Below, piece after piece: positions 551 through 38,259 of a stretch of 64,000 bases of DNA. The number at the start of each line of letters is the position of its first letter. The first letter of the stretch is position 1. The DNA is from a virus. The position numbers and the translations under genes are program-made. The notes beneath the pieces are model-generated. The model was not told where the DNA came from. It made no database searches and saw only the letters and a program-made list of their open reading frames with translations. The stretch is from positions 1 through 64,000 of the IMG/VR virus record IMGVR_UViG_3300021963_000023; one strand, 5' to 3'.

Positions 551-1051
551 ATGAAGTTTAAGGACATAATTAAGGACATTTTGATCGCTGAGAGTGAGGG
601 GCCGTCTGAACACGCAAAATGGGTTGCAAAACAAGTCTTGGTTAAGTTTATGTTTGCTGATTATAAAGAACAAAGGGGATTTGTTTGGGACTATGATCTT
701 GATGTGAGTGGGGTTTCTAATTTTGTTTTATCCGCCGGCGGTGCTGAGGATTATTACCTTCAGTATAACTTTGAAATTGATATTAGCTCATATCCTTCTT
801 ATACCCCAGCAACTTATGATGACCCAGGAGATTATGATCCCGCAGAATATGAAATTGAAATAAAACAAATTACCGTTTTTGATAACGATCAGATCATTTA
901 TGAGGGGCCAGACTTTACAAACTTCGCATCATTAAAAATTGGTGAGGTGGAATCCAGATATGGTCAAAACCGTATTAGTTATGGGGAAGGTTTTCTATAT
1001 GATTACTTTGGTGATAAAATTGAAGAAATATTAAGTGACAACGCAGACTAA
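551..1051 (+). CDS. Unknown protein with type B head
   Basis: 166 residues. The frame is open further upstream, but ATG 551 is chosen because it gives the type B head MKFKDIIKDILIAE, ending in I-A-E at residues 12-14, and because the TATTTATA motif sits just upstream. The body is acidic, rich in Asp, Tyr and Gly, with a Pro/Tyr/Asp stretch near residues 85-105 and an otherwise beta-like pattern. No known domain was recognised. If the head is a capsid-targeting peptide, the mature protein would begin at Ser15. Confidence 0.8.
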   Translation: MKFKDIIKDILIAESEGPSEHAKWVAKQVLVKFMFADYKEQRGFVWDYDLDVSGVSNFVLSAGGAEDYYLQYNFEIDISSYPSYTPATYDDPGDYDPAEYEIEIKQITVFDNDQIIYEGPDFTNFASLKIGEVESRYGQNRISYGEGFLYDYFGDKIEEILSDNAD

Positions 1052-1064
1052 AAAAATATAGTAT

Positions 1065-1178
1065 ATGGCAAACAAAAAGAAAAAACCCGTAGCTAAAAGA
1101 TCAAGAAGATCTGGGGTTAAAACAATGGAACTAGTTAAAAGAAATAACGAAATACTAAAAAAGTTTTTAACAAAATGA
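1065..1178 (+). CDS. Small strongly basic protein (37 aa)
   Basis: An ATG frame of 37 codons encodes a peptide beginning MANKKKKPVAKRSRR, about one-third Lys/Arg. Its stop overlaps the next gene's start (ATGA at 1175), which suggests translational coupling. The composition resembles nucleic-acid-binding or DNA-condensing phage peptides; a second basic peptide lies at 4167. Function is not known. Confidence 0.65.
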   Translation: MANKKKKPVAKRSRRSGVKTMELVKRNNEILKKFLTK

Positions 1179-1654
1179 AACAAACGTTAAACGAACAAGT
1201 TGCTAGAATTAAAGCTATGATGGTTCTTAAAGAACAACAGGAAATGACTCTTGAGCAATATATGGATGAGTTGTTAAAAGATCCTGTTGGGTTTTTAAAT
1301 AAATTAAATACTGATGAGCAATTTAAAAATGATTATATTAAATCTTACGGGCCGCAACAACCCGGTAATCCGAACAGAGCTATTTTGGAAAATGCTAAAA
1401 CTAAATTTATGATAAATAATGGGAGTACAATTACAGGACAGTTAAAAAATGATAAAACAAATGAGATTGTACTGAATTATGAAATATCCTCTTTAGATGA
1501 ATTTTTAAAATTAAACCAATTTATTAAAGATTATGAAGCAAAAGGAACACCTTTATTTGATGTAGGATTAGTAGGGCTTCTTAGAGATGTGAAAAATGGT
1601 AACGAGTTTGCTCAAGCTTTGAATATAGCAAGGGGTGCAAAGGTGTTCACATAA
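1175..1654 (+). CDS. Unknown protein with type C head
   Basis: 159 residues. It begins MKQTLNEQVARIKAMM, identical over 16 residues to the gene at 1683, and continues VLKE, so a L-x-E site lies at residues 18-20. The body is helical and polar with no recognisable motif. Over the shared 16 codons the two genes differ at four third positions and at no amino acid, so selection acts on the peptide. The start overlaps the preceding small gene by 4 nt. Confidence 0.8.
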   Translation: MKQTLNEQVARIKAMMVLKEQQEMTLEQYMDELLKDPVGFLNKLNTDEQFKNDYIKSYGPQQPGNPNRAILENAKTKFMINNGSTITGQLKNDKTNEIVLNYEISSLDEFLKLNQFIKDYEAKGTPLFDVGLVGLLRDVKNGNEFAQALNIARGAKVFT

Positions 1655-1682
1655 AAAAAAATACAAAAATTAATAATATATT

Positions 1683-2186
1683 ATGAAACAAACATTAAAC
1701 GAACAAGTCGCAAGAATTAAAGCCATGATGAGTCTTAATGAAGATGAGTCACAAACAATGGCCATGTTGCAACAAGAGACCGAAGAATTTAACCAGAAGG
1801 TTGATGAAGATTTAAGTCCGGAAGAATATAAGGAGCTAACATGCTCAGATCCAGATGATATGGAATTGCCTAATATTGGTGATGAAGAGAAGCAAAAGGT
1901 GATGGAGTTAAAAGAAAAGATGAAAACCGCATCATTCGCTGAACTAATGCAATTGAAAAAACAATTGAAGGAATTAAAAAGACAACAACAAAACGAGCAA
2001 GTTGCCGGACCGGCCGTTATATCCTTATTGGGTGTTAGCATGCCTCCTGCTTTTGCAATGGTTATTGGTGGAATCATCTTTATAATGATATTATCTTTTT
2101 TAAGTAAGTTTATTAGATTTAATAGAACAACCACATATTGGTGTGATGGGAAGAAATCACGTCTATTTGGTTTGTTAAGATGGTAA
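1683..2186 (+). CDS. Membrane-associated protein with type C head
   Basis: 167 residues. The type C head ends in S-L-N-E at residues 17-20. Residues 25-105 are a charged, probably coiled-coil region rich in Glu, Lys and Gln. Residues about 108-143 are strongly hydrophobic (GPAVISLLGV, then AMVIGGIIFIMILSF) and likely one or two membrane helices, followed by a basic tail. If packaged and ejected, it could insert in the host inner membrane; that is inference. No family recognised. Confidence 0.8.
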   Translation: MKQTLNEQVARIKAMMSLNEDESQTMAMLQQETEEFNQKVDEDLSPEEYKELTCSDPDDMELPNIGDEEKQKVMELKEKMKTASFAELMQLKKQLKELKRQQQNEQVAGPAVISLLGVSMPPAFAMVIGGIIFIMILSFLSKFIRFNRTTTYWCDGKKSRLFGLLRW

Positions 2187-2228
2187 TAATTGAACAACGG
2201 CCGCGGCTTCGCCGCTACATTTAATGAA

Positions 2229-2969
2229 ATGAAACAGAATATTAACGAAGAGATTAGAAAAATAAAACACATGATGCGCCTTAATGAGGAGGGCAATCTT
2301 GGTGTGTTTGATAATTTTCCGCCGGAATTATTAGAATTTCTGGAAAGCAATTATTCTCACATGTACAGATTTAAGTATGATTATAATGAGAAGGCCTCTA
2401 GATTTGTGAATAGAGAGACGGGAGAGTATGATGGTGCAGGGTTTAGAAAATGGATGGATGAGAATACAGCTGATGAGTTTGTTAAAAATAAATCTAGAAT
2501 AATTAGTGCAATTAGATCTGACTTAATTACCCTTAGAAGAAGAAAACTCACAAAATTAAAATTAGACGCATATGAGGAGTTGCTAATTTCACTTCTTGGT
2601 AATAACATTACCGGGCAAGCATTAACCAGATTTGAGGCGGATATTATAATGGACCCATATGCAACAGTAGAAAGCATTAGGAGAGGTTTTGAAGAGGCTA
2701 AAAATATTCTAGATAAACACGGTAGAGTAAATCCTGATAAGGTTGAACTATCAACGGTATTCCCAGGTGGTCATATTAATTACCCAACATTTGAAAGATT
2801 TGTTGAAGATAACCCAAAATACTTAAGCACATATGAAACTTGGGACAAGTTACATAAAGAATATCAAAAACATGATATGAAAGAACTAAATGGATTTAGA
2901 ATTTATGATGGGCATTATAAAGAACTTAGATCACTATATGATTTTTTAACATCAGACAAAAAAGATTAA
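2229..2969 (+). CDS. Unknown protein with type C head
   Basis: 246 residues from ATG 2229. The frame is open further upstream from a TTG, but 2229 gives the head MKQNINEEIRKIKHMMRLNE, aligning with the type C heads at 1175 and 1683 and ending in L-N-E at residues 18-20. The body is helical and charged (FKYDYNEKASRFVNRETGEY near residue 45) with no recognised motif. The next gene starts one base after its stop, so the two are probably co-translated. Confidence 0.78.
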   Translation: MKQNINEEIRKIKHMMRLNEEGNLGVFDNFPPELLEFLESNYSHMYRFKYDYNEKASRFVNRETGEYDGAGFRKWMDENTADEFVKNKSRIISAIRSDLITLRRRKLTKLKLDAYEELLISLLGNNITGQALTRFEADIIMDPYATVESIRRGFEEAKNILDKHGRVNPDKVELSTVFPGGHINYPTFERFVEDNPKYLSTYETWDKLHKEYQKHDMKELNGFRIYDGHYKELRSLYDFLTSDKKD

Positions 2970-2970
2970 T

Positions 2971-3387
2971 ATGAAATTAATAGATTTATTAACAGAAGCT
3001 AAGGATAAAAAAATTAAATGCAATCATTGTGATTGGTCATGGAAAGAATCTGAAGGCGGTAAGAAGAAATACTTGTGCCACAAGTGTGGTCATGACAATA
3101 CACCAAAATCATTTGACGAGTTTGCTGAAACAAGAATGAAAGGAGCGGACAAGATTGCAACAACAGCAAAAGAGAAAGGTGGTTTAGCAATGCTTACTTA
3201 TCATCACTTTAACGTTAAAAAACCTTATTATAATAAAGCGGCCGAAGGTAAGTTTGATCTTGCTGCGGCCAAAAAAGAATTTAAACAATGTGTTAAGGAC
3301 TTATCTTCTGATATGGAACAAGTTGCATTTCAGAAATTGGTTGGACGCATTGAGGTGCTTGGTGAATTAATCATCAAACACAAATAA
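2971..3387 (+). CDS. Zinc-ribbon protein with type B head
   Basis: 138 residues. The short type B head MKLIDLLTE ends in L-T-E at residues 7-9. A four-cysteine zinc ribbon follows (CNHC at 17-20, CHKC at 36-39, with a WSWKESEGG linker), then a helical domain containing MLTYHHFNVKKPYY. Zinc-ribbon modules of this look occur on virion or DNA-binding proteins of marine phages as far as I recall, but no function can be assigned. Confidence 0.8.
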   Translation: MKLIDLLTEAKDKKIKCNHCDWSWKESEGGKKKYLCHKCGHDNTPKSFDEFAETRMKGADKIATTAKEKGGLAMLTYHHFNVKKPYYNKAAEGKFDLAAAKKEFKQCVKDLSSDMEQVAFQKLVGRIEVLGELIIKHK

Positions 3388-3443
3388 AGAGAACCAGGGT
3401 TTGAAGACCCTGCTTAGGACCGGGACTAGTTACTAATCCCGTT

Positions 3444-3494: not shown

Positions 3495-4130
3495 ATGAAA
3501 TTTAAAGACATATTAGTTACAAAAGGATTAGATGAAGCAACACCAGTTGAAAAACCTGAACTAGGTTCTGGAGCAGATCATTATATATTCCCATCCAAGC
3601 GTAATCCAAACAAAGTATATAAACTAGGTTCAGAACATGCTGTGGATTTCTGGTATGATTTATTTAAAAACCATCCATCAATTTTCCCTGTTGTTTATAA
3701 GAGAGGTAAAACCAGAATGAAACTAGATCGAGATAAGGTGGTGTTTCAAGACAATAACTTTGTTAAACTTAAAGCCGGGTCTATTGTCCCTGTTGCTTAT
3801 GTTGAAATGGAAAAGTTAGACCCCAAGAGAGCTGAAAACGAATGGAAGATGTTGGATTTTGCGATTACAGATATAACTGAAGATCAATGGGATTTTCAAG
3901 ACTATGTTCTCCATTTTGCAATATTTGAAAGCTCCAACATGAAACCAGATTTTGATTTAATGTTACACGTTTTTGACGAGCTAAAGATAAATTATCCAGA
4001 TGAATATAAAATGATTACAAGATTTTTGGATTTAATCATTGAAGTCAAGAAAGTTAACAAACATCCCGATTTACATATGTATAACTTTGGCTATGACATG
4101 AAGGGTAATCTAAAATGTTTGGATATATAG
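3495..4130 (+). CDS. Protein-kinase-like protein with type B head
   Basis: 211 residues. The head MKFKDILVTKGLDE carries L-D-E at 12-14. The rest reads like a minimal protein kinase: a Gly-rich N-lobe (GSG at 24-26), a VYK lysine at about 43, and at the C-terminus HPDLHMYNFG at 190-199 followed by a hydrophobic strand ending LDI. The latter matches the catalytic-loop order HxDxxxxN plus D of kinases and of phage kinase-like proteins. Canonical kinases are longer and the DFG-like aspartate would be the penultimate residue, so activity is uncertain. A packaged kinase would be analogous in role to early phage host-modifying enzymes (inference). Confidence 0.7.
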   Translation: MKFKDILVTKGLDEATPVEKPELGSGADHYIFPSKRNPNKVYKLGSEHAVDFWYDLFKNHPSIFPVVYKRGKTRMKLDRDKVVFQDNNFVKLKAGSIVPVAYVEMEKLDPKRAENEWKMLDFAITDITEDQWDFQDYVLHFAIFESSNMKPDFDLMLHVFDELKINYPDEYKMITRFLDLIIEVKKVNKHPDLHMYNFGYDMKGNLKCLDI

Positions 4131-4357: not shown

Positions 4358-4810
4358 ATGAAAAAAATTAAAATAACAGAATCGCAGCTAAAGAGATTAG
4401 TTCTTAATGAACAAGGACTTAAGAATATTGGTAACAAGATTAAAGGTGGTATTCAAACTGTGGTGGATAAGGTAAAGGGTGCCCCAAAGGATAAAGAACT
4501 TACTCAACCAGGAAAACAAAGTCAGAACAGAGATCTTGATCAACTTAGAGCAGAGTGGTCTAAAATTAATCAGGACACAACCAATATGAAAGGTTATGGT
4601 GAAGCTGTTGGTCAACAAGAAAATTCAGCTAAAACCGCAGCAATGATGAAAGCTAGAATGGTCATTTTAAAAAAACTAAATAAACAACAAGCTAAATTCG
4701 GATCTGTTATTGTGGATGAAGCTCTATTCCAATTAGAAAATGGTAATTATATTAAGTTAATCGTTTTGGAATTAACAAAAGTTTGGGAAGACGAAAACGG
4801 TATTAATTAA
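4358..4810 (+). CDS. Unknown protein with type A head
   Basis: 150 residues from ATG 4358; the frame is open 30 nt upstream, but the head MKKIKITESQLKRLVLNE and the motif just before it favour 4358. L-N-E lies at residues 16-18. The body is Lys/Gln-rich with a helical C-terminal half (AKTAAMMKARMVILKKLNKQ). It is followed 6 nt later by another type A gene. No family recognised. Confidence 0.78.
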   Translation: MKKIKITESQLKRLVLNEQGLKNIGNKIKGGIQTVVDKVKGAPKDKELTQPGKQSQNRDLDQLRAEWSKINQDTTNMKGYGEAVGQQENSAKTAAMMKARMVILKKLNKQQAKFGSVIVDEALFQLENGNYIKLIVLELTKVWEDENGIN

Positions 4811-4816: not shown

Positions 4817-5584
4817 ATGAAAAAAATTGTAAAATTAACAGAATCAGATTTAACTAAATTGGTTAAAACAATTGTTGAAAATATATCAACAGAAGGTATT
4901 CCACAGGAAGATCTTGATGTTTTAACAGCTGAAGCGCATAAGATGGTTGAAAAAGATAGAGTTAAAGCACAGGAAATCAAGCAAGAATTAGATGCAATGA
5001 GAGAAAGAATGGAGGATATGGTTAAAGGTGGAAAATTAAATTTTGATGACACTACTGTGGAAGAGGTAATGAAAGCATATACTAGTCAAAAACAACAAGA
5101 ATATGACTACTATAGTACATCATCTGCAGATCGTTATTTACAAAACTTAATTTTTGAATTTAAAAGGAAGAAAGCATACGAAGATTACGAGAGAGAAAAA
5201 ATTGAAAGAAGAAAAACAAAGAAAATCGATAAAAAAGATATTATAAATCTATTTGTAACCGCATTAGAAGGTGGTTCAAATTATTGGTATTACTTACCTA
5301 GAATTCCAGATGGGGTAAGAGAGATAATGGCAGAATTAGACATGGAACTAACTGAAGCAATAGGTGAATACGTGCTTAGAGGTGGTAGTATTGACATAAA
5401 CGACGCTGAAGACGAAGAAACTAAACTTGGTACCGTTGATATGACTAGTCTATTAGAAGCAATAGATATCCTTAAAAATGATTACACACGCGCATACGAG
5501 AATATTATTGATGAAGAATATGACGCTGATGATGCTGACATATTTTTTCAATTAGCAGTTATGGGTGAGCTTACTTTCGGATAA
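4817..5584 (+). CDS. Unknown acidic helical protein with type A head
   Basis: 255 residues. The head MKKIVKLTESDLTKLVKTIVE has I-V-E at 19-21. The remainder is strongly charged, with a long basic/acidic helix (YEDYEREKIERRKTKKIDKK near residue 120) and an acidic C-terminus (EEYDADDADIF). No enzyme signature was seen. It sits between two other type A genes on the same strand. Confidence 0.8.
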   Translation: MKKIVKLTESDLTKLVKTIVENISTEGIPQEDLDVLTAEAHKMVEKDRVKAQEIKQELDAMRERMEDMVKGGKLNFDDTTVEEVMKAYTSQKQQEYDYYSTSSADRYLQNLIFEFKRKKAYEDYEREKIERRKTKKIDKKDIINLFVTALEGGSNYWYYLPRIPDGVREIMAELDMELTEAIGEYVLRGGSIDINDAEDEETKLGTVDMTSLLEAIDILKNDYTRAYENIIDEEYDADDADIFFQLAVMGELTFG

Positions 5585-5614: not shown

Positions 5615-6538
5615 ATGAAAAGAACAATTAGATTGACGGAAAGCGAATTAACAGCTTTGGTAAAAAAAATATTAAATGAAGTTGCTGAAGAACCGGTACT
5701 AGATAAACAAACCAAAATATTTGGTAATTTCTTCTTCGGTGAGGGTAAAACAAAACCAATGAGTTTCAACGGTGCACAAGTTACACAAGCCGATGTTGAT
5801 AGATTAATTAAAGAAATGGCGATGTTTATTAAGAATACAGGTACACTTCAAACATTACAAAAATTTGGTAGAACCGAAGGAGGTTATTCTAATAACCAAA
5901 ATATACCAAAATTCATTAGTCTTAACATAGGTACATCACACACAGGATCGGGCGAAGCAAATTCAAATGTTGCTCAAGGTAGATTTAGTTTCTTAAGTGG
6001 TATGGTGATGAAAGCGTTTGATTTACTTGGTGTCGATACATCAATAGCTAGATCGGTAGTAATCACAAATTCTAACACATCTTATTCACCAACAAGTTTG
6101 GATAAAAATTTCTTTGACCCTAAAAAACTTAAACCAGAAGATATTGAAAGATGGGGACACATTAGTATTACCAACTTAGCTACTATGGGTCATAAAACAG
6201 GTGGTATTCAACAAATACAAAGAAATTTAAATAATGCTTCAAGTGATATTAACAATATATTTGTTGATGGGGTTAACGAAGAAAAGGTTGTTTTTTTTAT
6301 TAAGAGACTTCAAACATTCTCCGACATTCAAGATTTAAGCAATTCAATCAATGCCGGCGGTCAATGGGCTTCGTTAGAGGATTTTTTAAACGACCAGCTT
6401 TTTGATGATATGGATGAAATGAGAGCAGTCGCCACCCATTTACAAAAATGTGCAGCCACTAGTGGAAAACAAAAAGATACTATTAGATTGGTACCAAAAA
6501 CAGGAGGAATGTTTATCAGTATTGGATTAGGTAACTAA
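5615..6538 (+). CDS. Unknown protein with type A head
   Basis: 307 residues. The head MKRTIRLTESELTALVKKILNE ends in L-N-E at 20-22. The body mixes helices and strands, with FGNFFFGEGKTKP near residue 40 and a glycine/serine-rich LNIGTSHTGSGEANSN near 110. The latter could be a nucleotide- or metal-binding loop but matches no Walker motif I can name. No paralogue is visible in the window. Confidence 0.8.
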   Translation: MKRTIRLTESELTALVKKILNEVAEEPVLDKQTKIFGNFFFGEGKTKPMSFNGAQVTQADVDRLIKEMAMFIKNTGTLQTLQKFGRTEGGYSNNQNIPKFISLNIGTSHTGSGEANSNVAQGRFSFLSGMVMKAFDLLGVDTSIARSVVITNSNTSYSPTSLDKNFFDPKKLKPEDIERWGHISITNLATMGHKTGGIQQIQRNLNNASSDINNIFVDGVNEEKVVFFIKRLQTFSDIQDLSNSINAGGQWASLEDFLNDQLFDDMDEMRAVATHLQKCAATSGKQKDTIRLVPKTGGMFISIGLGN

Positions 6539-6571: not shown

Positions 6572-7156
6572 ATGATATTAACAGAAGCTCAATTATCAAC
6601 TTTGATAAAAAAAATTATAAGGGAACAGGTAGATAGTACATCAATAACATCAAAACCAACATCTTCTTCTGGTGCAAAACTACCAACCCCAATACAAATA
6701 AAAATATTATTATCTACTAAAAAGGGTGAAGAAACATATTTGGTCTCTTTTGATAAAGTAAAACAAGTTAAAGATGGATGTGAATTTGAGGGAACATTTA
6801 GAGGCGACACAAAAAGACACACTTTTATGTATAAGTGTGATGGGACATTATATTGGAAACAGGGTATGCTTTCATCAAATACTGAGGTAGAAATTTCTGC
6901 AGAAGCGGCTAAATTACTAGCAAAAGCGTGTGGTTGCGATGTATATGCATCCAATAAGCCTGCATCGGGAATGCAGAGTCAAATGGCTGAAAATAATGGC
7001 AGTGTAACTAAATCAATTTCCTTTGAAAGTATTGAAGAGTTTATGTACAACGAATATAGTAAGAAAAACAATAAAAATATAAGTGTTAATTTAACATTTG
7101 ATGGTAGACAAGTTTTAGCAAATATAAACGGCTCAAAAGTCCCAGTAAAAAGATAA
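6572..7156 (+). CDS. Unknown protein with type A head
   Basis: 194 residues. The head MILTEAQLSTLIKKIIRE ends in I-R-E at 16-18. A Ser/Thr/Pro linker (about 20-35) precedes a beta-rich domain with four cysteines (CEFEG, YKCDG, ACGCD) that could bind a metal. The C-terminal third is Asn/Lys-rich. A terminator shared with the convergent next gene follows. Confidence 0.8.
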   Translation: MILTEAQLSTLIKKIIREQVDSTSITSKPTSSSGAKLPTPIQIKILLSTKKGEETYLVSFDKVKQVKDGCEFEGTFRGDTKRHTFMYKCDGTLYWKQGMLSSNTEVEISAEAAKLLAKACGCDVYASNKPASGMQSQMAENNGSVTKSISFESIEEFMYNEYSKKNNKNISVNLTFDGRQVLANINGSKVPVKR

Positions 7157-7166: not shown

Positions 7167-7189
7167 CCCCGATAATTCGGGGTTTTTTT
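7167..7189. terminator. Bidirectional terminator
   Basis: CCCCGA/TCGGGG hairpin with T-tract on the plus strand and A-rich flank on the other, between the convergent genes ending at 7156 (+) and 7188 (-). Confidence 0.85.
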
Positions 7190-8090
7190 ATTTAATTTGG
7201 AATATATTAATTTCTAAATTTGGATTCTCTTCCTTAAACTTGTTGAATCTCATTATTTGTTCATCCATATCATCAAATATGTTGATGGTATCAATTGAAG
7301 GATTATTCTTTAACATGTCCTTAATCCTTTCAGGTTTTTCCCTATTGTCGTTTTTAAAGTCATAGTAATCAAATACATACAAACCATCTAGTTTTTCTTT
7401 AACTACCGGCTCAAACTTAGCCATTCTGTTTGTCATCAATATCGTTATGGAATTTGGAATAGTTGAATATTCATTATAAAAACCTTTGGTTTGTTCAATT
7501 GGTTGAACATCAAATGGTTTAAGACTATCTATCTGTCCCCACCAACCTTTGTGTGGCCAATCCTTACCGGTTAACTCTTTATATTTTTCTTTACCAGGAT
7601 TTGGCATTGGTGAATCCATTAATGTCCCGTCAAAATCAAAAACATTTAATGTTGTTGGGGCACCCTTTGCTTTGAATGGAACTTGATATAATATCTCTTC
7701 AATCTTACCTGTAACGTTAAATGATTCCGCCAATTCTTCCCATGCTGTAATCTCGTTAGAATCCTTCGGTTTAGCCCCATTTGCGGCGTTTATAGCCACG
7801 GTTATATGTGGAATAGCATTCTGTGATAAAGACGTCTCTATACCCACCGCAATGGCCTTATCTGACTTACCTAGTTTGGTTACTCTTAATGTAACCGTCT
7901 GTCCTATCTTTTCTTTTAAATTTTCAGGTAACTCACCCATTTTAATTGTCATATGATGACATATTGCTTTCCAATCATTAGGGAACGCCACATGGTTAAG
8001 AATAGCCGATCTAGATCCGGGGTCTAAAACAACAGCAGAATAGGATACTTTATAACTTTGGTCTTCAGTAAGAATGTCTAATAATCTCAT
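7188..8090 (-). CDS. 2H-phosphoesterase / HAD phosphatase fusion with type B head
   Basis: 300 residues from the Met giving MRLLDILTE (L-T-E at 7-9); an upstream in-frame Met would add six residues. The N-terminal domain has two H-x-T motifs, HMT at 46-48 and HIT at 95-97, the signature of 2H phosphoesterases acting on 2',3'-cyclic or 2'-5' RNA ends. The C-terminal domain is HAD-type: DFDGT at 152-156, a TNR motif about 70 residues on, then DDMDEQ. The order recalls the end-healing part of tRNA ligases and 'Swiss-army-knife' RNA-repair HAD proteins. Role inferred: repair or trimming of RNA ends, possibly delivered with the virion. Confidence 0.75.
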   Translation of the reverse strand: MRLLDILTEDQSYKVSYSAVVLDPGSRSAILNHVAFPNDWKAICHHMTIKMGELPENLKEKIGQTVTLRVTKLGKSDKAIAVGIETSLSQNAIPHITVAINAANGAKPKDSNEITAWEELAESFNVTGKIEEILYQVPFKAKGAPTTLNVFDFDGTLMDSPMPNPGKEKYKELTGKDWPHKGWWGQIDSLKPFDVQPIEQTKGFYNEYSTIPNSITILMTNRMAKFEPVVKEKLDGLYVFDYYDFKNDNREKPERIKDMLKNNPSIDTINIFDDMDEQIMRFNKFKEENPNLEINIFQIK

Positions 8091-8139: not shown

Positions 8140-9294
8140 ATGAAGATTGTGATTTCTGAAGAACAATTAAATAAAATTGTTAAAAATATTAGAGAAGCAA
8201 CTAATCAAAGAAAAACATTGAATTTTTTTGATTTGGTTAGTAAGGGGATTCTGTGGGTAGTAGAACCTCATGAAAACGGGGAAAGAGTAAAACCAAGGTG
8301 GGAACACGATAGTAACCTTATAACATTATGGAATATAGAACATCCAGAGCCTGGTCAAGAATGGGTTAAAAAAGCAAAACATTTCACTAAAACCGGGTCA
8401 ATTTGGTGGTGGAATGATATTGGTCAATTCGATTTGTCAGATGAAAAATATAATCAAATACTACGAAGTATAGACCTATATAAAGAAAAAAATAAAAAAG
8501 ACGATAGCGCAAAGTTCTTAAAATGCACAGCTTGTAAAAAATGGTTTACACAAACCATATATAAAAAGAAAAAGTCATTACCTATATGTCCTTGGTGTGG
8601 CAAACACAATACGGATTTAAAAGAAAGTGAACTTGATGAAAGAAGTAGAAGTTTTGCTTTTACTAGAAAAATGAGGTTGTTTAGTAAGGCGGAAATGATG
8701 GCTAATCCAATGAGGTATAAGAAGAACGATTTAGATAAGAAAAATATTGAGTTGGATGAAATAGGTGTCTATAAGTTTTCAGAAAGGTCCTCATATGGTG
8801 TGCCAGGTGAAAAAGAATATGATGAAGTTCTTAACAATAATATTTTTTTAAAGGAGATTGGTGATTTTGGTTATTTGTATAGCATGACAGAAGATTATAT
8901 GTCTCAGGTGATAACAATATATGTTGTAGATAAACAAAAGAAAAGACAAGTCGGAGTTGCTGAATTTGAAATGAGGGGAGAAGATTTCTTTGTTACTTTA
9001 CCATATGTAATTGAGGAATATAGAGGTAGAGGAATCGCAACAGAAATTTATAAAATGATATTAACATTTGGTGGGTTAGTTTCTGGTAAAGCACAATCAG
9101 AACAAGCCGTTGGATTGTGGAAAAAACTATATAAAGAGTTACCCAATAAAATGGTATATGTTGATGATTCTGGAAAATATTTTGATGTTGAACTAGTCAA
9201 TAATGATTTAGTTTATGGAGATGATAAACAAAGCGTCTATAAGGAAATGGGTGGGTATTTAAAATTATTTCAGAATGAGAATAGTAATAACTGA
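8140..9294 (+). CDS. Zinc-ribbon / GNAT acetyltransferase with type A head
   Basis: 384 residues from ATG 8140. The head MKIVISEEQLNKIVKNIRE ends in I-R-E at 17-19. A Trp-rich region (about 38-95) is followed by a zinc ribbon (Cys 129, 132, 150, 153). The C-terminal domain is GNAT-like, with the acetyl-CoA pyrophosphate-binding motif YRGRGIA at 294-300 after a hydrophobic strand. It should acetylate a substrate that the sequence does not reveal. Its last 20 nt overlap the next gene, so the two are coupled. Confidence 0.78.
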   Translation: MKIVISEEQLNKIVKNIREATNQRKTLNFFDLVSKGILWVVEPHENGERVKPRWEHDSNLITLWNIEHPEPGQEWVKKAKHFTKTGSIWWWNDIGQFDLSDEKYNQILRSIDLYKEKNKKDDSAKFLKCTACKKWFTQTIYKKKKSLPICPWCGKHNTDLKESELDERSRSFAFTRKMRLFSKAEMMANPMRYKKNDLDKKNIELDEIGVYKFSERSSYGVPGEKEYDEVLNNNIFLKEIGDFGYLYSMTEDYMSQVITIYVVDKQKKRQVGVAEFEMRGEDFFVTLPYVIEEYRGRGIATEIYKMILTFGGLVSGKAQSEQAVGLWKKLYKELPNKMVYVDDSGKYFDVELVNNDLVYGDDKQSVYKEMGGYLKLFQNENSNN

Positions 9295-9877
9295 GAGACA
9301 GCTTAATAATTTGATCTCACCTAACGTTGAGGGTTTAGAAGATTTGATGAATCAGATCATTGATAAATTCCCGGAGGTTGAGGATTATAAAGATAAGCTA
9401 ATAGATTTCATAAATAAATCTAATTGTAAGAAAATTGAATTTGCTACAATGCAGCATGCTGGCGGGTTATCTTTACATAATTCAGTGTTATTAAATAAGA
9501 TTTTATTAAATAGAGATCTTAATTCATTAATTTTTATTATATTTCATGAAATTGCTCACCAATATCAGTTTAAAAAATATGGTGCAGAAAAAATGTATGA
9601 GCTTTACACAGGGAAAATACATTTAGAAGATGCTGTTGATTTTTTATATAATACAGAAATAACTGCGGATGAATTTGCATTTAGAAAAGTAAAAGAGTTT
9701 TACAAATTGGGTTTATTAAAAACCATAACAGATATGCGTATGTATAAAAAAATGGGTAAACACAATTTAGCCAATATGTATAATCAGGTTAAGAAAATCT
9801 TATCAGTAAGAAAAGGTGATAGCCCCGATGAGGTGAGCGAAGTCCTTTATAATTTTATTAAAATTAAAATAGAATAA
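9275..9877 (+). CDS. HExxH zinc metalloprotease-like protein with type A head
   Basis: 200 residues. Head MRIVITERQLNNLISPNVE. HEIAH at 91-95 in a hydrophobic helix is a gluzincin-type zinc site; a likely third ligand is a Glu in TEITADEFAF about 55 residues later. Size and layout resemble small ImmA/SprT-like phage metallopeptidases. It overlaps the upstream GNAT gene by 20 nt and shares one base with the next start, forming a tight three-gene unit of tagged enzymes. Confidence 0.78.
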   Translation: MRIVITERQLNNLISPNVEGLEDLMNQIIDKFPEVEDYKDKLIDFINKSNCKKIEFATMQHAGGLSLHNSVLLNKILLNRDLNSLIFIIFHEIAHQYQFKKYGAEKMYELYTGKIHLEDAVDFLYNTEITADEFAFRKVKEFYKLGLLKTITDMRMYKKMGKHNLANMYNQVKKILSVRKGDSPDEVSEVLYNFIKIKIE

Positions 9878-10854
9878 TGAATATATTATTAACAGAATCA
9901 CAACACAATCGTTTGGTTAAGCATCTTTATCAACCAGATGGTATTAGCTGTGGCCCAACATGTATAAAAATGGTTGGTGATTTTTTCAAGGGTGAGGTTG
10001 ATAGTATCGATGAAATATGTAAATCATGTGGAACTGACAACATAACTGGAACTCCACCAGAAAGAATGAGAAAAGGTTTAGACTCTTTGGATATACAGTA
10101 TGTTGAGCATATGGACGAAGAAAGCCCGTATGATTCCCTAAGAAGTGTTATTGATAATGGAAGCGTTGCAATGCTTAGAACTCTAACACAAAGGGTACCA
10201 CATTGGATTGTTGTTCATTCATATGATGATGATATCTTTTATGTAAACGATCCATGGTTAGGTCAGTTAACATATAGTGAAACAGATTTAGAAGAAATTT
10301 GGAAAGAAAGAAATTATTTCTTTTTTGAGGTGATCAAGGAAAATAATAAGGAAGAAGATTTAGATGAACACTCATATAGTGGCAATGTTACCTTAAGACC
10401 ATATAATGAAGCAAAAGATGCATTAGAAATATTTAATAAACTAGAAGAAGTATACAGTAAAATAGGCTGGCCTAAAGAAGCCATATGGAACGAATTACAA
10501 CCAATAGATTCCAGTTTAAGTATTGTGGCGGAAGTTGATGGTAAAGTGGGTGGTTTTTATATTATAAAAGACGCTAACATACCGTTACTCGGTAAAGAAG
10601 ATGATGAGATGTTATCTAAACTAAATGGTATTGAGGGCGTTGCTCTAGGTATCTTCAATGAGTATAAGAATTATGGTATCGGTAAAGATATGATCGAATA
10701 CCCCAAAACGATTGGGGCTGATTATATTTGGGGATTACAACTAAAAGGACTTGGAAATATCGACGATTGGTTAAAGAGAAGAAAACTTTATGCTGACGTT
10801 GGACAAATGTATATAACTTATCAAATATTTAATAATAATGAGCAAAGTAATTAA
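9877..10854 (+). CDS. C39-like cysteine protease fused to a GNAT-like domain, type A head
   Basis: 325 residues. Head MNILLTESQHNRLVKHL. The protease-like domain has DGISCGPTC with Cys25, then PHW with His109 and VNDPW with Asp125: the Cys-His-Asp order of papain-like C39 peptidases (bacteriocin-leader or toxin-processing type). The second half (from about 168) reads like a GNAT fold with GIFNEYKNYGIGKDMIEY resembling the acetyl-CoA loop. The fusion is unusual. The next gene starts 17 nt inside its 3' end. Confidence 0.72.
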   Translation: MNILLTESQHNRLVKHLYQPDGISCGPTCIKMVGDFFKGEVDSIDEICKSCGTDNITGTPPERMRKGLDSLDIQYVEHMDEESPYDSLRSVIDNGSVAMLRTLTQRVPHWIVVHSYDDDIFYVNDPWLGQLTYSETDLEEIWKERNYFFFEVIKENNKEEDLDEHSYSGNVTLRPYNEAKDALEIFNKLEEVYSKIGWPKEAIWNELQPIDSSLSIVAEVDGKVGGFYIIKDANIPLLGKEDDEMLSKLNGIEGVALGIFNEYKNYGIGKDMIEYPKTIGADYIWGLQLKGLGNIDDWLKRRKLYADVGQMYITYQIFNNNEQSN

Positions 10855-11701
10855 AATTAAGGAATCTGAGGTTTTTGATATGATCACCCAGATTATAAAC
10901 GAACAATCAGCTAGTGAAATTAAAGTAACCGCAAGTGGTGAACTGGGTACTTACCCGGAATTCAGTGGTTTAAAGAAACTATTAGCACAATTAAGAAATA
11001 ATGTACAAAAAGCATTAAGAGGGAATATTCCATATGTGATAAAATCAAACGAAGCATTGGGAACCATTTTACCTAGAAAAGTTGGTGGTACGCTAAGTTT
11101 AACTGTTACATTAATACCTTCTGAAGAATCAAAAAGACATTGGTATTTCGATGGCTCGGCTGGTATATATAGCTATATTAACACCACAAGTATCAGCGCA
11201 GTTAACGCTAAAGTTAGAATGTCAGTAATGGATAAGGCTCAGGCTGGGTTTGTTGGATCTAGTCCAATAGAAATTTACCCTAATACTTTTGGCTTATCCT
11301 CGTTCACAAATTTAAACCCCACTGAACCAAATAAACAGTATAGCATTATACTTAAATTTCTTGTTGGTTTAAGACCGGGCGGATTTTATGAAGTAGGTGA
11401 TGAGGATCCAACACAACCTAATCAAGATTCAAAACTTAAAAATGTGGAGGATTTAAAGGAAGGTTATAGTTTTTATGCAATTAGAAGTACCGATAATCAA
11501 AAATATAAATTAGTTATTGGTAAGTTAATGCAAAATTATAACGGGTTTCCAGCAGTCTTTATAACCGGACCTGGTACTTATGAAGGTAAAAATTTAGACG
11601 GGACAGCTCCGTATAATTTAGTTCCTTCCACTGAAAAACCAGGAGAATTAACTGGGAATACAGAAATGGGTTCATTTAGACTTATTTCATATGCTGGATA
11701 A
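10838..11701 (+). CDS. Unknown protein with type A head
   Basis: 287 residues. Head MSKVIKIKESEVFDMITQIINE ends in I-N-E at 20-22. The body looks beta-rich and hydrophilic, with an even spread of Gly, Thr and Tyr like a virion or adhesion domain. It overlaps the upstream gene by 17 nt. No motif recognised. Confidence 0.78.
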   Translation: MSKVIKIKESEVFDMITQIINEQSASEIKVTASGELGTYPEFSGLKKLLAQLRNNVQKALRGNIPYVIKSNEALGTILPRKVGGTLSLTVTLIPSEESKRHWYFDGSAGIYSYINTTSISAVNAKVRMSVMDKAQAGFVGSSPIEIYPNTFGLSSFTNLNPTEPNKQYSIILKFLVGLRPGGFYEVGDEDPTQPNQDSKLKNVEDLKEGYSFYAIRSTDNQKYKLVIGKLMQNYNGFPAVFITGPGTYEGKNLDGTAPYNLVPSTEKPGELTGNTEMGSFRLISYAG

Positions 11702-11725: not shown

Positions 11726-12184
11726 ATGAAAATAGTGATAAGTGAAGAACAATTCAATATGTTGTATAGTGTACCGGATAGACCAAGTTTAACCGAAGTT
11801 GAATATGTTGTTAATATTTTACAAGAAGAAGATGAGGATGATACTTTTGACTTAGGAATGAGTGGAGAAACCAATGAACATCACTTATATTATTTTTATA
11901 TTGGTGAGGCATTCTTTGATGAATTCTATGACAAAACATATCTAGAGTTATTTGATGAGTACAAACAAAATCCTGAAGATTGTACGCCGTTTGTTGATGC
12001 TGTCATTAAGTCCATAATAGAAAAAATGAAGCAGTCAATAGAAGAAAAAAAAGCAGCGAAAATTTTAAAAAAAGTAATAAAAAAACAAATTGTTGTTAAA
12101 TTTAAAGAAAGTGATATTCTTAAAATTTTAGATGCTCATTTTGGTAACTTTATTTGTAGCGAGTTTCTTGAGGAGGCTCGTTAA
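11726..12184 (+). CDS. Unknown acidic protein with short type A head
   Basis: 152 residues. It starts MKIVISEEQFNML, like the gene at 8140, but the helix is broken early; the nearest later L-x-E is L-T-E at 22-24. An acidic cluster (QEEDEDDTFD) and a basic helix (KKAAKILKKVIKKQ) follow. It ends 4 nt inside the convergent minus-strand gene. Function unknown. Confidence 0.75.
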   Translation: MKIVISEEQFNMLYSVPDRPSLTEVEYVVNILQEEDEDDTFDLGMSGETNEHHLYYFYIGEAFFDEFYDKTYLELFDEYKQNPEDCTPFVDAVIKSIIEKMKQSIEEKKAAKILKKVIKKQIVVKFKESDILKILDAHFGNFICSEFLEEAR

Positions 12185-18357: not shown

Positions 18358-18377
18358 GGGGTTTAAACCCCTTTTTT
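18358..18377. terminator. Bidirectional terminator
   Basis: GGGGTTTAAACCCC palindrome flanked by A7 and T6, between the convergent endolysin gene and the gene at 18376. Confidence 0.85.
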
Positions 18378-26215: not shown

Positions 26216-26545
26216 ATGGGAGATAAGATAATTTCTGAAAACACAATAAAGGAGGTTTTGGACCAGATACTAAGCGAAGAGGTTTCAAAAGTTAAAAGAG
26301 AAGACTTTGCAAGGGTTCAATTTAAAATTGACGAGTTACAAAACTCTCTAAACGAAACACTTAAGGAATTTAGAAAACTACAAGATTCTGTACCAGGTGG
26401 TTTAAAAACAATTACAAATGGTAGATTAACTGGAATTTCACAAAGTTTAAGTTCAGCACAAAAATTAACAACACAGTTAAAGGAAAAAATAAAACTATTT
26501 AAAAAGTCTCTTTATACACAACAAGTAGAAGAAAAAAAGAAATAA
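26216..26545 (+). CDS. Coiled-coil protein with type A head
   Basis: 109 residues. The head MGDKIISENTIKEVLDQILSE has L-S-E at 19-21 and closely matches the head at 21127 (xVLDQILxE). The body is one long coiled coil (FKIDELQNSLNETLKEFRKL) with a Lys-rich end. A single-gene unit. Confidence 0.75.
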   Translation: MGDKIISENTIKEVLDQILSEEVSKVKREDFARVQFKIDELQNSLNETLKEFRKLQDSVPGGLKTITNGRLTGISQSLSSAQKLTTQLKEKIKLFKKSLYTQQVEEKKK

Positions 26546-33763: not shown

Positions 33764-35209
33764 ATGCATTTAGTAATAACTGAAAGACAGCTAAAGGATT
33801 TAATCAGATTAAGCTCTGTAAATCAAGATCTTAGTGAAGAGGGTGAGATTGGTTCACCGGAAGCTGGAACATCTAGTGATGGGGAGCAAAAGACTGGTGC
33901 AACCAAGTGGGAGAGCGGTGTAACTAGAGGACCGGCTAATCAAATTGGACCGACCACATGGTCAAACATTGTGGGTTCAACCTTAAAAAGAGGTAAAGCT
34001 AATCCATTAGGTGAGCAAATTAACCCAGTAGTTGACATGGTAACTAACGCTATGGCTATTGATTCTGCCATGAATGATACCAAGTATGTGGAACTTACAA
34101 CCCCATGGAGAACAAAAATAAAAATACCTGCAGACGCTCAATATAAACTTTGGGAACCTGAAGCAGATAGAACAAAATCAATATCAAAAGATCGAATAAG
34201 AGAAATTGGTAGTAGAGTATATTGGAGGGTTGGGTATGATAAAAAAATTGAGGACGATGTTTATGAATTGGTTAAAAATGAACAATTAACAGGAGTTTTA
34301 CCGGATGGATCTTTAAGATATTTCACAACAAATGACGGTAAAGATTGGATTTTCGTAGTAACAAGAACCGGTGTTGATCCATCAGATAAATCTGGTATTT
34401 GGACCATTAAATATAAAACCTTTGTGCACCATCCAAGCCCAACAGCAGCATATGAGAATTATGATGACAAAAAATACATTAAAAAAAGTACATCAACAAT
34501 AATTGTTGAGTTTTTTAATGAATATGGTGAATTAATTTTACAAGTAACTCTTAGTGTTGCATTGGGAATATTAACAATGGGGCAAAGTTTATGGATACAA
34601 GCGTTAGCTGAATTTGCATTAAATGCAGCATTTGCTGCCAAACAATTACTTGTTGATAAAAATAATTTTGGAGCCGCATTGTCCTTAATTATTGGCGTGG
34701 TGCCATTTGCATCAATAGGCTTAAGATATGGGTTAGGTAAATCATTAGCAGCATTATCAAAGTACGGCCCGGAATTATCGGCTGCAAAAAGTTTAGATGA
34801 GGCACAAGAAATTATATCCAGATTTTCGGCTACAGAACAAACATTAATAAAAAAAGCGTTATCTCTACCTGAAGCGACGCTAAAAAAAGCGATGAATGAA
34901 GGTTCTGTAAAAATTTTCCTAGAAGGAATAAAAAAAGGAACTATAGATATTGCTAAAATCCCGTTACAACAAAGAACGTGGGTCTGGCAGACCACATTTG
35001 AGTTACTTACAGGTGGCCTTATTATTTGGCAAGGTATTAAGTATAAAAAAGAAATGATGGAGAAAGAAAGTAAAGAATTTTCAAATCTTTCATTAACAAT
35101 GTGGACCCCACAAAATGGTTTCGATACTCCAGAATTTAGGAAATGGGCGGAAGAAATGGGTGTAAAATATGGTGAGGGGTATAAAAAAGAAGAAAACCAA
35201 CCTAAATAA
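33764..35209 (+). CDS. Large membrane-active-looking protein with type A head
   Basis: 481 residues. Head MHLVITERQLKDLIRL; the nearest later L-x-E is L-S-E at 23-25. Residues 30-75 are Gly/Ser/Thr-rich. A beta-rich domain spans 100-240, then hydrophobic helices (VTLSVALGILTMGQSLWIQ, AALSLIIGVVPFASIGL) around 260-320 and again near 410. If ejected, it could form a channel for DNA entry (inference). No homologue recognised. Confidence 0.75.
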   Translation: MHLVITERQLKDLIRLSSVNQDLSEEGEIGSPEAGTSSDGEQKTGATKWESGVTRGPANQIGPTTWSNIVGSTLKRGKANPLGEQINPVVDMVTNAMAIDSAMNDTKYVELTTPWRTKIKIPADAQYKLWEPEADRTKSISKDRIREIGSRVYWRVGYDKKIEDDVYELVKNEQLTGVLPDGSLRYFTTNDGKDWIFVVTRTGVDPSDKSGIWTIKYKTFVHHPSPTAAYENYDDKKYIKKSTSTIIVEFFNEYGELILQVTLSVALGILTMGQSLWIQALAEFALNAAFAAKQLLVDKNNFGAALSLIIGVVPFASIGLRYGLGKSLAALSKYGPELSAAKSLDEAQEIISRFSATEQTLIKKALSLPEATLKKAMNEGSVKIFLEGIKKGTIDIAKIPLQQRTWVWQTTFELLTGGLIIWQGIKYKKEMMEKESKEFSNLSLTMWTPQNGFDTPEFRKWAEEMGVKYGEGYKKEENQPK

Positions 35210-35241: not shown

Positions 35242-36270
35242 ATGAAAGAAATTTTAAGTGAAATTAATAGAAACAGAACATTGATGGGATTACCAGTGTT
35301 AACAGAAGGAACCGGATTAGCAGGTATACTTGACGCCGCAGTAGGCGGAATGGAATTAACCATGCAGAAACAAGTGACCAAAGAGATTGTTGACAAGTTT
35401 GCTGGTAGTTTCACTTTTGGCAATGCCGCGGCTAAAACTAAATTCATAAACGGTGGTCTGGCTAGTGTTAAAACTGCATTAGGAAAAATATCAAGAAAAG
35501 AAGCGTTAGCAATAATTGTTCAAATAGATAATTCACAAATTCCTAAATTAGCGTCATTTATAATGAAAAATGAAGATGGTTTGGTTGATACTGTAAGTCA
35601 ATTGATTCAAAAAGGGGTTCCAGTAAAAGATATTAAAGCGAAGCTTGGTACACTTACTGATATTCCTGATACGGTAATCAATACAATGATTAAAAATATT
35701 GAAATAGATGTTCTATTTACACCAGAAAGAATAACATCATTTGCAAAAGCTATTGAAACTTCTGGAGGTAAAAACTTAAAAAAGTTAACACAGGAAGCTA
35801 TTGATACATTTAGAACATCAAATCCAGGTGCTACGGAACAACAAATTGCTGAGCATATGGTTAGGAATCTACCAGATAACTTTTTTAGTGCTAAGAATGT
35901 TGAATTATTAACTAGAAAATTTGGTAGTGGATTTAAATCTATTTTGGGGGTGCTTATTTTGAATAAAAAACGTTCTGCCCCATCATGGTGGAAGATACTT
36001 GGTATATTGGGTGCTTCAACCACTATTGCTATTTATACCGCAATTGGCGATCATATTAGTAGAGAATATATTCCTGATGCGATAGACATTCTTGAGAAGA
36101 ATCCAAAATATAAATGTTACGCTAAGTACGTTACACCAGGTAAAGATAAAAACCATTTTGTTGTGGTAGAACCAGATAATACACGAGCTATTATTAAATT
36201 CGACAATAAAAGATTTTGGTATGTGGATAAAAATGATACACCAATAAAAGAATTGACTTGTAACGAGTAA
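35242..36270 (+). CDS. Helical membrane-associated protein with type C-like head
   Basis: 342 residues. It begins MKEILSEINRNRTLMGLPVL followed by TEG: the EINRxxxLMGL pattern parallels type C heads and L-T-E lies at 20-22. Most of the body is helical; a membrane helix (ILGILGASTTIAIYTAIG) lies near 250, then a small basic domain. It is 2 nt before the next gene, which suggests coupled expression. Confidence 0.77.
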   Translation: MKEILSEINRNRTLMGLPVLTEGTGLAGILDAAVGGMELTMQKQVTKEIVDKFAGSFTFGNAAAKTKFINGGLASVKTALGKISRKEALAIIVQIDNSQIPKLASFIMKNEDGLVDTVSQLIQKGVPVKDIKAKLGTLTDIPDTVINTMIKNIEIDVLFTPERITSFAKAIETSGGKNLKKLTQEAIDTFRTSNPGATEQQIAEHMVRNLPDNFFSAKNVELLTRKFGSGFKSILGVLILNKKRSAPSWWKILGILGASTTIAIYTAIGDHISREYIPDAIDILEKNPKYKCYAKYVTPGKDKNHFVVVEPDNTRAIIKFDNKRFWYVDKNDTPIKELTCNE

Positions 36271-36272
36271 TT

Positions 36273-37214
36273 ATGCTAAAAAATTTAAAGGAACAAGCAG
36301 ATAAAAGGGCTGGTGCACCAAAAGGCGCAGCAACAGTGAATGACACAAATTCTTCCGCAGATGCTAGAGCCGGTGGAAGTGCTGGTTCTCAAGATAAAAG
36401 AGCCGGTGGAAATGCTGGTGGAAGTGCTGGTTCTCAAGATAAAAGAGCCGGTGGAAATCCAGCAACAGTGACTTCTGATGTATTTGCGTGTTTATTAAAT
36501 TCTAAAGAAACCGATACTCAACCAAAAATTGTAAAAACAAGTAGTCCAAATCAGGTAAGACAAGTCTTTTCTGATGTTATTTTTTACTTTTTTAGTAATT
36601 ATTATTTTCAATTTACGGATAAGACCGGTAAATTCGACAAAACAAAACATTATAAGGGCACTTGGAAATGTGATGGAGATAAAGATTATATAATAAACAC
36701 CGAGGATGGTGATGATTATAGTAGTAAAAGAGGAAATTGGAAAGGAGTTCCTAACAATAGTAATAACAACAACAATAATAACAATAATAACAATACAGGA
36801 TTAGTAGATACAACTTTAACAGGCGATGAATTGAAGGCCGGTAAAGTTGTTAAAATTGGTATGAAAGGTTCAATTGTTGGAACCATACAAGATTTATTAA
36901 TTAAATTAGGATATACAAATGTAAGTAGTTCTGGTGAAAAAGACAATAAGTTTGGGAGAAGAACAAAACAAATGGTGAAAGATTTCCAAACAAACAATGG
37001 TTTAACCGATGATGGTGAAGTAGGTAAAGATACGTGGCCAAAATTAAACGATCCAGCAGCAGTTAAAAATAGTGCATCAAGCACATCTAGTTTAAGTGGA
37101 TCTGCCAAAACTTCAGTTGCTAAAGATGGTGAAACAGTTGCTGGTTCAGATGTTATTATTGTTAACGAAAAACTTAAAAAAACATTAAGAGAAAACCTAT
37201 TAAAGTTTAATTAA
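36273..37214 (+). CDS. Repeat-containing peptidoglycan-binding protein
   Basis: 313 residues. The N-terminus (MLKNLKEQADKRAG) is followed by imperfect repeats of RAGGSAGSQDK (about 28-65), a Cys-containing domain, a run of about 14 Asn near 165, and a PG_binding_1 module from about 190 (MKGSIVGTIQDLLIKLGY, FGRRTKQMVKDFQTNNGL, KDTWPKL). The last residues (NEKLKKTLRENLLKFN) are tag-like but weak. It probably binds cell wall; no catalytic domain. Confidence 0.78.
   Translation: MLKNLKEQADKRAGAPKGAATVNDTNSSADARAGGSAGSQDKRAGGNAGGSAGSQDKRAGGNPATVTSDVFACLLNSKETDTQPKIVKTSSPNQVRQVFSDVIFYFFSNYYFQFTDKTGKFDKTKHYKGTWKCDGDKDYIINTEDGDDYSSKRGNWKGVPNNSNNNNNNNNNNNTGLVDTTLTGDELKAGKVVKIGMKGSIVGTIQDLLIKLGYTNVSSSGEKDNKFGRRTKQMVKDFQTNNGLTDDGEVGKDTWPKLNDPAAVKNSASSTSSLSGSAKTSVAKDGETVAGSDVIIVNEKLKKTLRENLLKFN
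36351..36462 (+). repeat. In-frame tandem repeat coding RAGGSAGSQDK units
   Basis: Near-identical units of 33-45 nt with the core GCCGGTGGAAGTGCTGGTTC recur, in frame, inside the peptidoglycan-binding protein gene. Copy number may vary between isolates. Confidence 0.75.
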
Positions 37215-37229
37215 TAGTTAATTAGTAGA

Positions 37230-37237
37230 TATTTATA
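37230..37237 (+). promoter_or_regulatory. TATTTATA motif in a non-coding leader
   Basis: It is followed by 130 nt without a clear gene (37239-37368): a strong Shine-Dalgarno-like AAAGGAGGT near 37290, a tiny 11-codon frame just before it, and a hairpin GGAGC/GCTC near 37316. Confidence 0.35.
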
Positions 37238-37368
37238 TTAGGAGTTTGATTGGTTTGGTCACCATCAAATGATAATACGAAAAAAACGAAAGGAGGTATT
37301 CTAAATCTCGACAAAGGAGCTCTAAAGGCTCTTTTGTTCGTTTATAGTGTTAAGGGTATTTATTATAT

Positions 37369-38259
37369 ATGAAATTCAGGGATTTATTACAAGATTTATT
37401 GGAAGAACAATTACCCTGCGAAAAGGTAGTAACGTATGATATGCTTAAACAAGCAAAAGATTGGTGGAATAATCGTTTAAGTGATCCAAATATAATTATG
37501 AAAATTCTTAGAGCAAAATTTACTGTTGATGAGTTAAAGACTTGGACCGATAAAGAAATTGATAGAACTGTGAATTATACGGTTCAGGATTTGCAAGCAG
37601 CTAGAAAAAAAATTGATTTAATAAATAAATTGTCATATTATAATGACCCTAAGGGCAGTGAGTTTATGTATGTAAAATCAAATGAACCAAATATCATAAA
37701 TATTAATTGTGCATATGTTCCTAAGTATAACAATGACCAATTGGTTTCATCCTTGGTTCACGAAATACAACATCATATACATTATTTAATTGGTGGTGAT
37801 GAGTATTTGAATGATATACGTGGTGGTATAAAAATTGAAAAGAATCCATATCGTCCACAGGTTCCAGTGTCCGAGAAAAGTTGGTTTGATAAAGCAAAGG
37901 AATATATTAATAGTTTAACTGGTTCAAAAAAGGTAGATAAGTTAATTCCTGTTAATGATGGTCAGTTTACAAAGAGGTACCAAAGCCGAGTTTGGGAGTA
38001 TTTTAAATCTAAACAATCTTATGCGTGTAATCCAACTGAAATACAATCAAGGGTAGCTCAAGTTAGAATGCTTTTAAATTTAAAGCCTGGCCAAGACATT
38101 ACAATAGAGATGTTAAAAAATCAAAAAGTATATGAAGAATTTGAGCTCAATTTAATGTGTTGGGGAGGTAGAAAAGATAATGTTTCTTTACAAGATTATT
38201 TGAATAACCTAAATTCATTGGTAAAGAACGATACACTAAATAAATCAACACAAGTATAA
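37369..38259 (+). CDS. HExxH metalloprotease-like protein with type B head
   Basis: 296 residues. Head MKFRDLLQDLLEE (L-E-E at 11-13). HEIQHH in SSLVHEIQHHIHYLIGG near 138 is an extended zinc site, HExxHxxxH-like (the His at +8 is visible in HEIQHHIHY). The C-terminal part (YACNPTEIQSRVAQVRMLL) is helical and supplies a Glu. A tagged, possibly ejected protease. Confidence 0.78.
   Translation: MKFRDLLQDLLEEQLPCEKVVTYDMLKQAKDWWNNRLSDPNIIMKILRAKFTVDELKTWTDKEIDRTVNYTVQDLQAARKKIDLINKLSYYNDPKGSEFMYVKSNEPNIININCAYVPKYNNDQLVSSLVHEIQHHIHYLIGGDEYLNDIRGGIKIEKNPYRPQVPVSEKSWFDKAKEYINSLTGSKKVDKLIPVNDGQFTKRYQSRVWEYFKSKQSYACNPTEIQSRVAQVRMLLNLKPGQDITIEMLKNQKVYEEFELNLMCWGGRKDNVSLQDYLNNLNSLVKNDTLNKSTQV

Follow-up and report, generated by a model that had tools for sequence, protein, structure and literature searches.

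Why should 27 genes encoding mostly unrelated proteins begin with variants of a few short N-terminal sequences? The question is raised by positions 551 to 38,259 of a 64,000-nt stretch of virus DNA (the window), which is the first 64 kb of the 251,149-base IMG/VR record IMGVR_UViG_3300021963_000023. These N-terminal sequences (the heads) are about 9-25 residues long, mostly amphipathic, and carry the motif (L/I)-x-E. Judging by sequence, we consider it very probable that they are cleavable capsid-targeting propeptides of the kind found on the internal proteins of bacteriophage T4, used here on an unusual scale.

An earlier note on this DNA had described 27 genes with one of three head types in front of unrelated bodies. 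On re-reading of the N-termini all 27 heads were present, and in every case (27/27 genes) residues 1-25 contain one or more (L/I/V)-x-E. The three types hold (A, eight genes; B, four; C, 14), and gene 22997-23542 had to be assigned to a fourth, D, whose consensus MKNLxxIIKKHLKxIxE is common in relatives. The bodies are mostly unrelated as stated, except that genes 14012-15577 and 18376-19623 have a common body domain (38% over 203 aa). Two (L/I)-x-E sites, one on each side of the helix and usually 13 residues apart, are present in nearly all heads of types B and C. The rest of the genome, where the note had proposed to look for further heads, has head-like N-termini at 71080, 81708, 82989, 126489, 177231 and 179062. 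The 27 heads of the window are as follows; each sequence ends at its candidate cut, and a slash marks the cut elsewhere in the text.

551..592 (+), type A head MKFKDIIKDILIAE, gene 551-1051; TATTTAT upstream
1175..1234 (+), type B head MKQTLNEQVARIKAMMVLKE, gene 1175-1654
1683..1742 (+), type B head MKQTLNEQVARIKAMMSLNE, gene 1683-2186
2229..2288 (+), type B head MKQNINEEIRKIKHMMRLNE, gene 2229-2969
2971..2997 (+), type A head MKLIDLLTE, gene 2971-3387 (zinc-ribbon insert and helical domain)
3495..3536 (+), type A head MKFKDILVTKGLDE, gene 3495-4130; TATTTAT upstream
4358..4411 (+), type C head MKKIKITESQLKRLVLNE, gene 4358-4810; TATTTAT upstream; type C profile
4817..4879 (+), type C head MKKIVKLTESDLTKLVKTIVE, gene 4817-5584; type C profile
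5615..5680 (+), type C head MKRTIRLTESELTALVKKILNE, gene 5615-6538; TATTTAT upstream; type C profile
6572..6625 (+), type C head MILTEAQLSTLIKKIIRE, gene 6572-7156; type C profile
8064..8090 (-), type A head MRLLDILTE, gene 7188-8090 (tRNA-ligase-type phosphodiesterase and HAD domains, Pfam E 1e-5 and 2e-5)
8140..8196 (+), type C head MKIVISEEQLNKIVKNIRE, gene 8140-9294 (GNAT-like, weak); TATTTAT upstream; type C profile
9275..9295 (+), type C head, gene 9275-9877 (SprT-like, weak); front site ITE only
9877..9897 (+), type C head, gene 9877-10854 (C39-like peptidase, Pfam E 2e-7 to 3e-8); front site LTE only
10838..10903 (+), type C head MSKVIKIKESEVFDMITQIINE, gene 10838-11701; type C profile
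11726..11797 (+), divergent type C head, gene 11726-12184; sites ISE at 7 and LTE at 24
13984..14022 (-), type A head MKFKEVIYSLLTE, gene 12181-14022
15539..15577 (-), type A head MKFKKILTSILIE, gene 14012-15577
16002..16046 (-), type C head MNIQITEAQYKKLIE, gene 15567-16046; TATTTAT upstream; type C profile
16082..16144 (+), type C head MKKIIVTENQAKTIVDYIISE, gene 16082-17194; G001 and G003 orthologues also type C
19582..19623 (-), type A head MNFKDIIYEMLISE, gene 18376-19623
21065..21127 (-), type C head MKKYILTESQVKRVLDQILNE, gene 20681-21127; type C profile
23495..23542 (-), type D head MLLEEIIKTHLRNLVE, gene 22997-23542; type D defined from relatives
26216..26278 (+), type C head MGDKIISENTIKEVLDQILSE, gene 26216-26545; orthologues in four relatives
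33764..33838 (+), type C head MHLVITERQLKDLIRLSSVNQDLSE, gene 33764-35209; sites at 7 and 25; type C profile
35242..35307 (+), type B head MKEILSEINRNRTLMGLPVLTE, gene 35242-36270; TATTTAT upstream
37369..37407 (+), type A head MKFRDLLQDLLEE, gene 37369-38259; candidate cuts LLE at 12 and LEE at 13; TATTTAT upstream

A profile built from the 14 type C heads of the window and applied at a cut-off score of at least 16 retrieved 14 of 279 genes, where 0.05 were expected from shuffled N-termini and 0.37 from protein interiors. Outside the training set the profile found 9, 7 and 8 heads in the relatives G001, G003 and G004, respectively (0 to 0.26 expected). In a test that uses no profile, (L/I)-x-E near the N-terminus was found in 65% of the 51 genes in 1-40 kb, versus 24% for their own interiors (z 7.7). 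The excess recurs in the portal-to-capsid block (60% versus 29%) and, in G001, in that genome's own cluster; the same test gave no excess in any of the remaining parts of the genome. Chance or wrong start codons as the origin of the heads are ruled out by the profile statistics, together with the matches at starts of open reading frames (ORFs) and the conservation up to Glu described below.

A degenerate DNA search of IMG/VR with the first 12 residues of type C gave at least 133 matches on at least 120 contigs. Among the matches listed, 126 of 132 lie at ORF starts and about 97 dissimilar bodies stand behind the one head; a distal (L/I)-x-E is present in 95 of these 97, exactly 13 residues after the first Glu in 76 and 17 residues after it in 14; and 75 full-length proteins align to the consensus MKKIIRLTESDLxRIVKRVIxE, with nothing in common beyond it. 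Although positions 13-22 were left free by the search, column entropy in the 75 proteins is 0.7-1.9 at positions 14-20, 2.9 at P2 (position 21), 0.76 at P1 (position 22) and 3.4-4.0 beyond. P1 is Glu in 63 of the 75; in most others Glu follows one helical turn later. Variability at P2, with P3 and P1 held constant and no conservation past P1, is what would be expected of a propeptide removed by a protease. The same tags occur in hundreds of uncultured relatives. A tblastn search of a phage collection with the type C consensus returned no match, for which low-complexity filtering is perhaps responsible, and isolates may carry heads.

Heads of different types were found on homologous bodies. The body of gene 2971-3387 has 511 matching IMG/VR stretches; 39 of its 42 distinct N-termini end in hydrophobic-hydrophobic-x-Glu, with Leu or Ile at P3 in 38 and ten different residues at P2, counts that are descriptive only because the counting pattern demanded that form. 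Most copies have a type A head (MKLTDILTE/SKSFDEFA). In L171 and L173 the head is of type C, MKLIITEQQYKLLTE/SKSFDEFA, and the junction falls at the same residue (ILTE/SKSFDEFA and LLTE/SKSFDEFA); the G004 copy also has a type C head, and those in L182, L195 and L221 are headless. The 81708 body follows MISLVNIAKNLLE/SY or MKIVISESQLKTLLE/SY (NLLE/SY, TLLE/SY), and the 82989 body, adjoining the capsid gene, follows D or C heads, making three families in which differing head types are joined to the same body at (L/I)-x-E. Homologues of 71080 in L026, L034 and L054 are headless, with a stop just upstream and a Met start at the position after Glu. Among 20 homologues of 12181, which are 29-84% identical to the window copy, M1 and E13 alone are invariant in the head. 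The body of 7188-8090 is preceded by MKLLSLLFE/NN in relative G006:95144, and the 14012-15577 homologue G004:13799 begins MKTLSLVEELIIE/AS. In AlphaFold models the heads are low-confidence helices ending at the site: helix 2-8 in 2971, at a low predicted local distance difference test score (pLDDT), and helix 3-12 in 12181, also at low pLDDT, with a break at 13-14. The earlier proposal that the head types reflect different scaffold contacts is left unsupported, because A, C and D heads substitute for each other on homologous bodies.

A gp21-like protease in the rest of the genome had been set beforehand as a test of a T4-like packaging route, and a Peptidase_S77 prohead protease was found there (E 2e-24). 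The portal, S77 protease, scaffold and gp23-type capsid genes, all outside the window, match their counterparts in Flavobacterium phage immuto at 29-41%. The capsid protein reads SYLINE/AAVSDASGSF at the position where T4 gp23 is cut; the site LINE/A is conserved in 32 sampled relatives, and capsid relatives are encoded in at least 596 IMG/VR stretches.

The headed genes may also be timed with the virion genes. In four genomes (G001, G003 and G004 among them) the promoter-like octamer that dominates is TATTTATA, at 17-28-fold enrichment; its reverse complement is the late-promoter octamer of T4, TATAAATA. Ten of 15 virion or lysis genes, among them those for portal, protease, scaffold, sheath and tube, have TATTTATA upstream, as does PhoH, and the six replication genes considered lack it; we take it for a probable late promoter element. 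Directly upstream of headed genes it occurs in 14 of 27 cases versus 0.8 expected, and 23 of the 27 have it either directly or at the inferred operon start.

S77 was detected in 18 of 22 large head-bearing contigs versus none of 12 control contigs (Fisher p 3e-6), the controls having been picked by an unrelated AT-rich word, being smaller than the head-bearing contigs and not matched for phage group or taxon. This mismatch weighs against the propeptide reading, as do several other points. S77 was not seen in the other four of the 22 contigs; the headless 2971-type bodies sit on short contigs, from which capsid type cannot be read; the heads at 9275 and 9877 have no second site, and that at 11726 is marginal, with the lowest leave-one-out score (8.0); in heads of types B and C the first (L/I)-x-E may cap the helix instead of being cut; and type C heads match the T4 peptide MKTYQEFIAE only in Met-Lys and the site. 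On balance the proposed T4-like route is supported by the S77 protease, the matching capsid site, the constraint up to Glu, the head swaps, the headless homologues that begin just past that site, the shared late-type promoter motif and the co-occurrence.

Under the propeptide reading, headed proteins would be made together with virion proteins late in infection. The amphipathic head would take each protein into the assembling prohead, probably via the scaffold core, where the S77 prohead protease would cut after (L/I)-x-E, as in the capsid protein. The freed bodies would stay with the DNA and be injected at the next infection, many of them acting as early effectors. We infer the scaffold binding, cutting, packaging and injection of the headed proteins, and their function likewise. 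The roughly 27 tagged proteins suggest a large toolkit loaded into the capsid and injected into the host. In a stronger form of the proposal, to which we incline only slightly, type C is an undescribed capsid-import tag that is not derived from the T4 sequence, is interchangeable with A, B and D, and packages dozens of effectors per virion across large Bacteroidota-infecting phages, the tag alone marking a large and mostly unexplored set of injected anti-host proteins.

By Pfam, the bodies in the window include the phosphodiesterase-HAD protein (possibly an RNA repair enzyme) and the C39-like peptidase, with weak GNAT and SprT matches; headed bodies in relatives include tRNA nucleotidyltransferase (E 2e-40), NUDIX, lysozyme, LysM and HD domains. 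Most headed bodies have no Pfam match, a PHROGs scan of ten gave one match (a function-unknown family), and Foldseek searches of the PDB with the modelled structures of 2971 and 12181 gave no match within E <= 0.001. Few bodies are common to relatives and repertoires differ greatly, as would be expected of accessory effectors. The C39-like protein went unmatched in 13 large relatives, a sign that bodies turn over quickly.

These data leave some room for an unlikely alternative, in which the heads are S77-cut prohead-targeting propeptides as proposed, and the majority of the bodies work inside the capsid as parts of its core, scaffold or maturation machinery, few being injected. The scarcity of Pfam and PHROGs matches fits such a role, and head-like N-termini do occur on genes beside portal and capsid (71080, 81708, 82989). 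However, several bodies look enzymatic, from the phosphodiesterase-HAD and GNAT-like proteins to the lysozyme and HD domains, and repertoires vary between relatives in a way that core structural proteins do not. Much less probable is that the heads target some other place (portal, tail, membrane or replication compartment) and that the final (L/I)-x-E is the mere end of an amphipathic helix. The heads are indeed amphipathic (mean maximal moment 0.59 versus 0.42 in protein interiors) and TES is a normal helix-cap pattern; against this reading stand the free P2 between fixed P3 and P1, with constraint ending at P1, the same site in type A heads lacking the type C sequence and in the capsid protein, and the co-occurrence with S77. 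The notion that the shared N-termini are mRNA-level signals or gene-start copies without a targeting role can practically be set aside, for although start regions are AT-rich and the neighbouring type B heads at 1175 and 1683 are 88% identical in nucleotides (the second possibly a recent copy of the first), a residue that two heads have in common is often encoded by different codons (in 6 of 12 such cases for 4817 and 5615, and also in copies within one genome) and the peptide is constrained up to residue 22.

The bodies are not basic in the manner of internal proteins (mean charge -0.011 versus -0.019 per residue), and Pterin-4a dehydratase was discounted as a clear cargo, its Pfam domain itself starting within the head-like stretch. 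Proteins of different architecture have small modules in common, namely a zinc ribbon (CNHCDWSWKESEGG..CHKCGHDN, window 2998-3105) and an ERSRSxAxTRKxRLF segment (window about 8600-8740); such modules lie also at G004 93179, G003 127648, G004 11308 and G001 129682. The 12181-14022 and 14012-15577 families have conserved YLGVNTEWCTAWG and RMGHCGSSRG motifs, and similar WCT motifs appear in other G004 proteins.

As to the genome, the window also contains a transfer-messenger RNA gene (39720-40116, -) and 21 tRNA genes (45593-50489, -). A near-identity search with 25 kb of the window matched no phage record. Outside the window, at 218828-226481, consecutive proteins have Cys-rich motifs (e.g. FCILPWTHLMIQPNGNIQPCC) that by eye resemble SPASM/radical-SAM proteins. 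Relative G002 (251,358 bases) has unusually many short ORFs; its long-ORF coverage is low at 0.46, or 0.59 with TGA readthrough, versus 0.86 in G000, pointing to either frameshift errors or a changed code.

Packaged effectors are normally found by virion proteomics. If the heads are packaging tags, hundreds of uncultured phages could be searched by sequence for packaged proteins, yielding ranked candidates for early counter-defence proteins, many from families without a Pfam match. The T4 capsid-targeting sequence (CTS) is already used for loading chosen proteins into phage heads (PMC3012670), and the tags described here could serve likewise. A full-text literature search, confined to open-licence papers, found no description of the head families, which is weak evidence of novelty.

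Among known systems, the large phages SPN3US, phiKZ and 201phi2-1 are similar in that a prohead protease removes N-terminal propeptides from proteins of the inner head. Those propeptides are mostly longer than 100 residues with the site A-x-E or S/A/G-x-E (PMC5694885), whereas the heads here have about 9-25 residues and (L/I)-x-E. The phage itself, a large virus of Bacteroidota bacteria, belongs, by its gene order, with the published bS21-encoding Bacteroidetes phages (PMC9723584), because a reverse-strand bS21 ribosomal protein gene (genome 76844-76996, -, E 1e-11) lies inside the structural block, between portal and protease; those phages have the same arrangement, with bS21 on the reverse strand amid the genes for portal, protease and capsid. 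Terms for capsid targeting, internal proteins, ejection and cleavage were looked for in that paper, and none turned up. A cultured relative, Flavobacterium phage vB_FspM_immuto, has a gp23-type capsid protein and a prohead protease; its gene immuto26A_189 has a type A head (LLRE/AKEAIEDFA) on a 2971-type body, and the type C profile found no clear type C heads in it.

The closest parallel is T4, whose internal proteins are diverse and have only the CTS in common (PMC3012670); Ip1-3 each block a different GmrSD restriction enzyme, and T4 has three internal proteins, with at least 10 known among related phages (PMC12373910). As with the CTS of IPI-IPIII and Alt, a short N-terminal peptide ending in (L/I)-x-E precedes diverse bodies, in company with an S77 protease and a gp23-type capsid. 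The type A head MKFKDIIKDILIAE resembles by eye the CTS MKTYQEFIAE of ipII and ipIII, a likeness too short for statistics, while B, C and D heads are unlike it. The phage differs from T4 in the number of such proteins, 27 in one genome where T4 has three; it also has no fewer than three additional head families (B, C and D, with B and C usually carrying two (L/I)-x-E motifs), and on homologous bodies its C and D heads were seen to replace one another or to trade places with type A.

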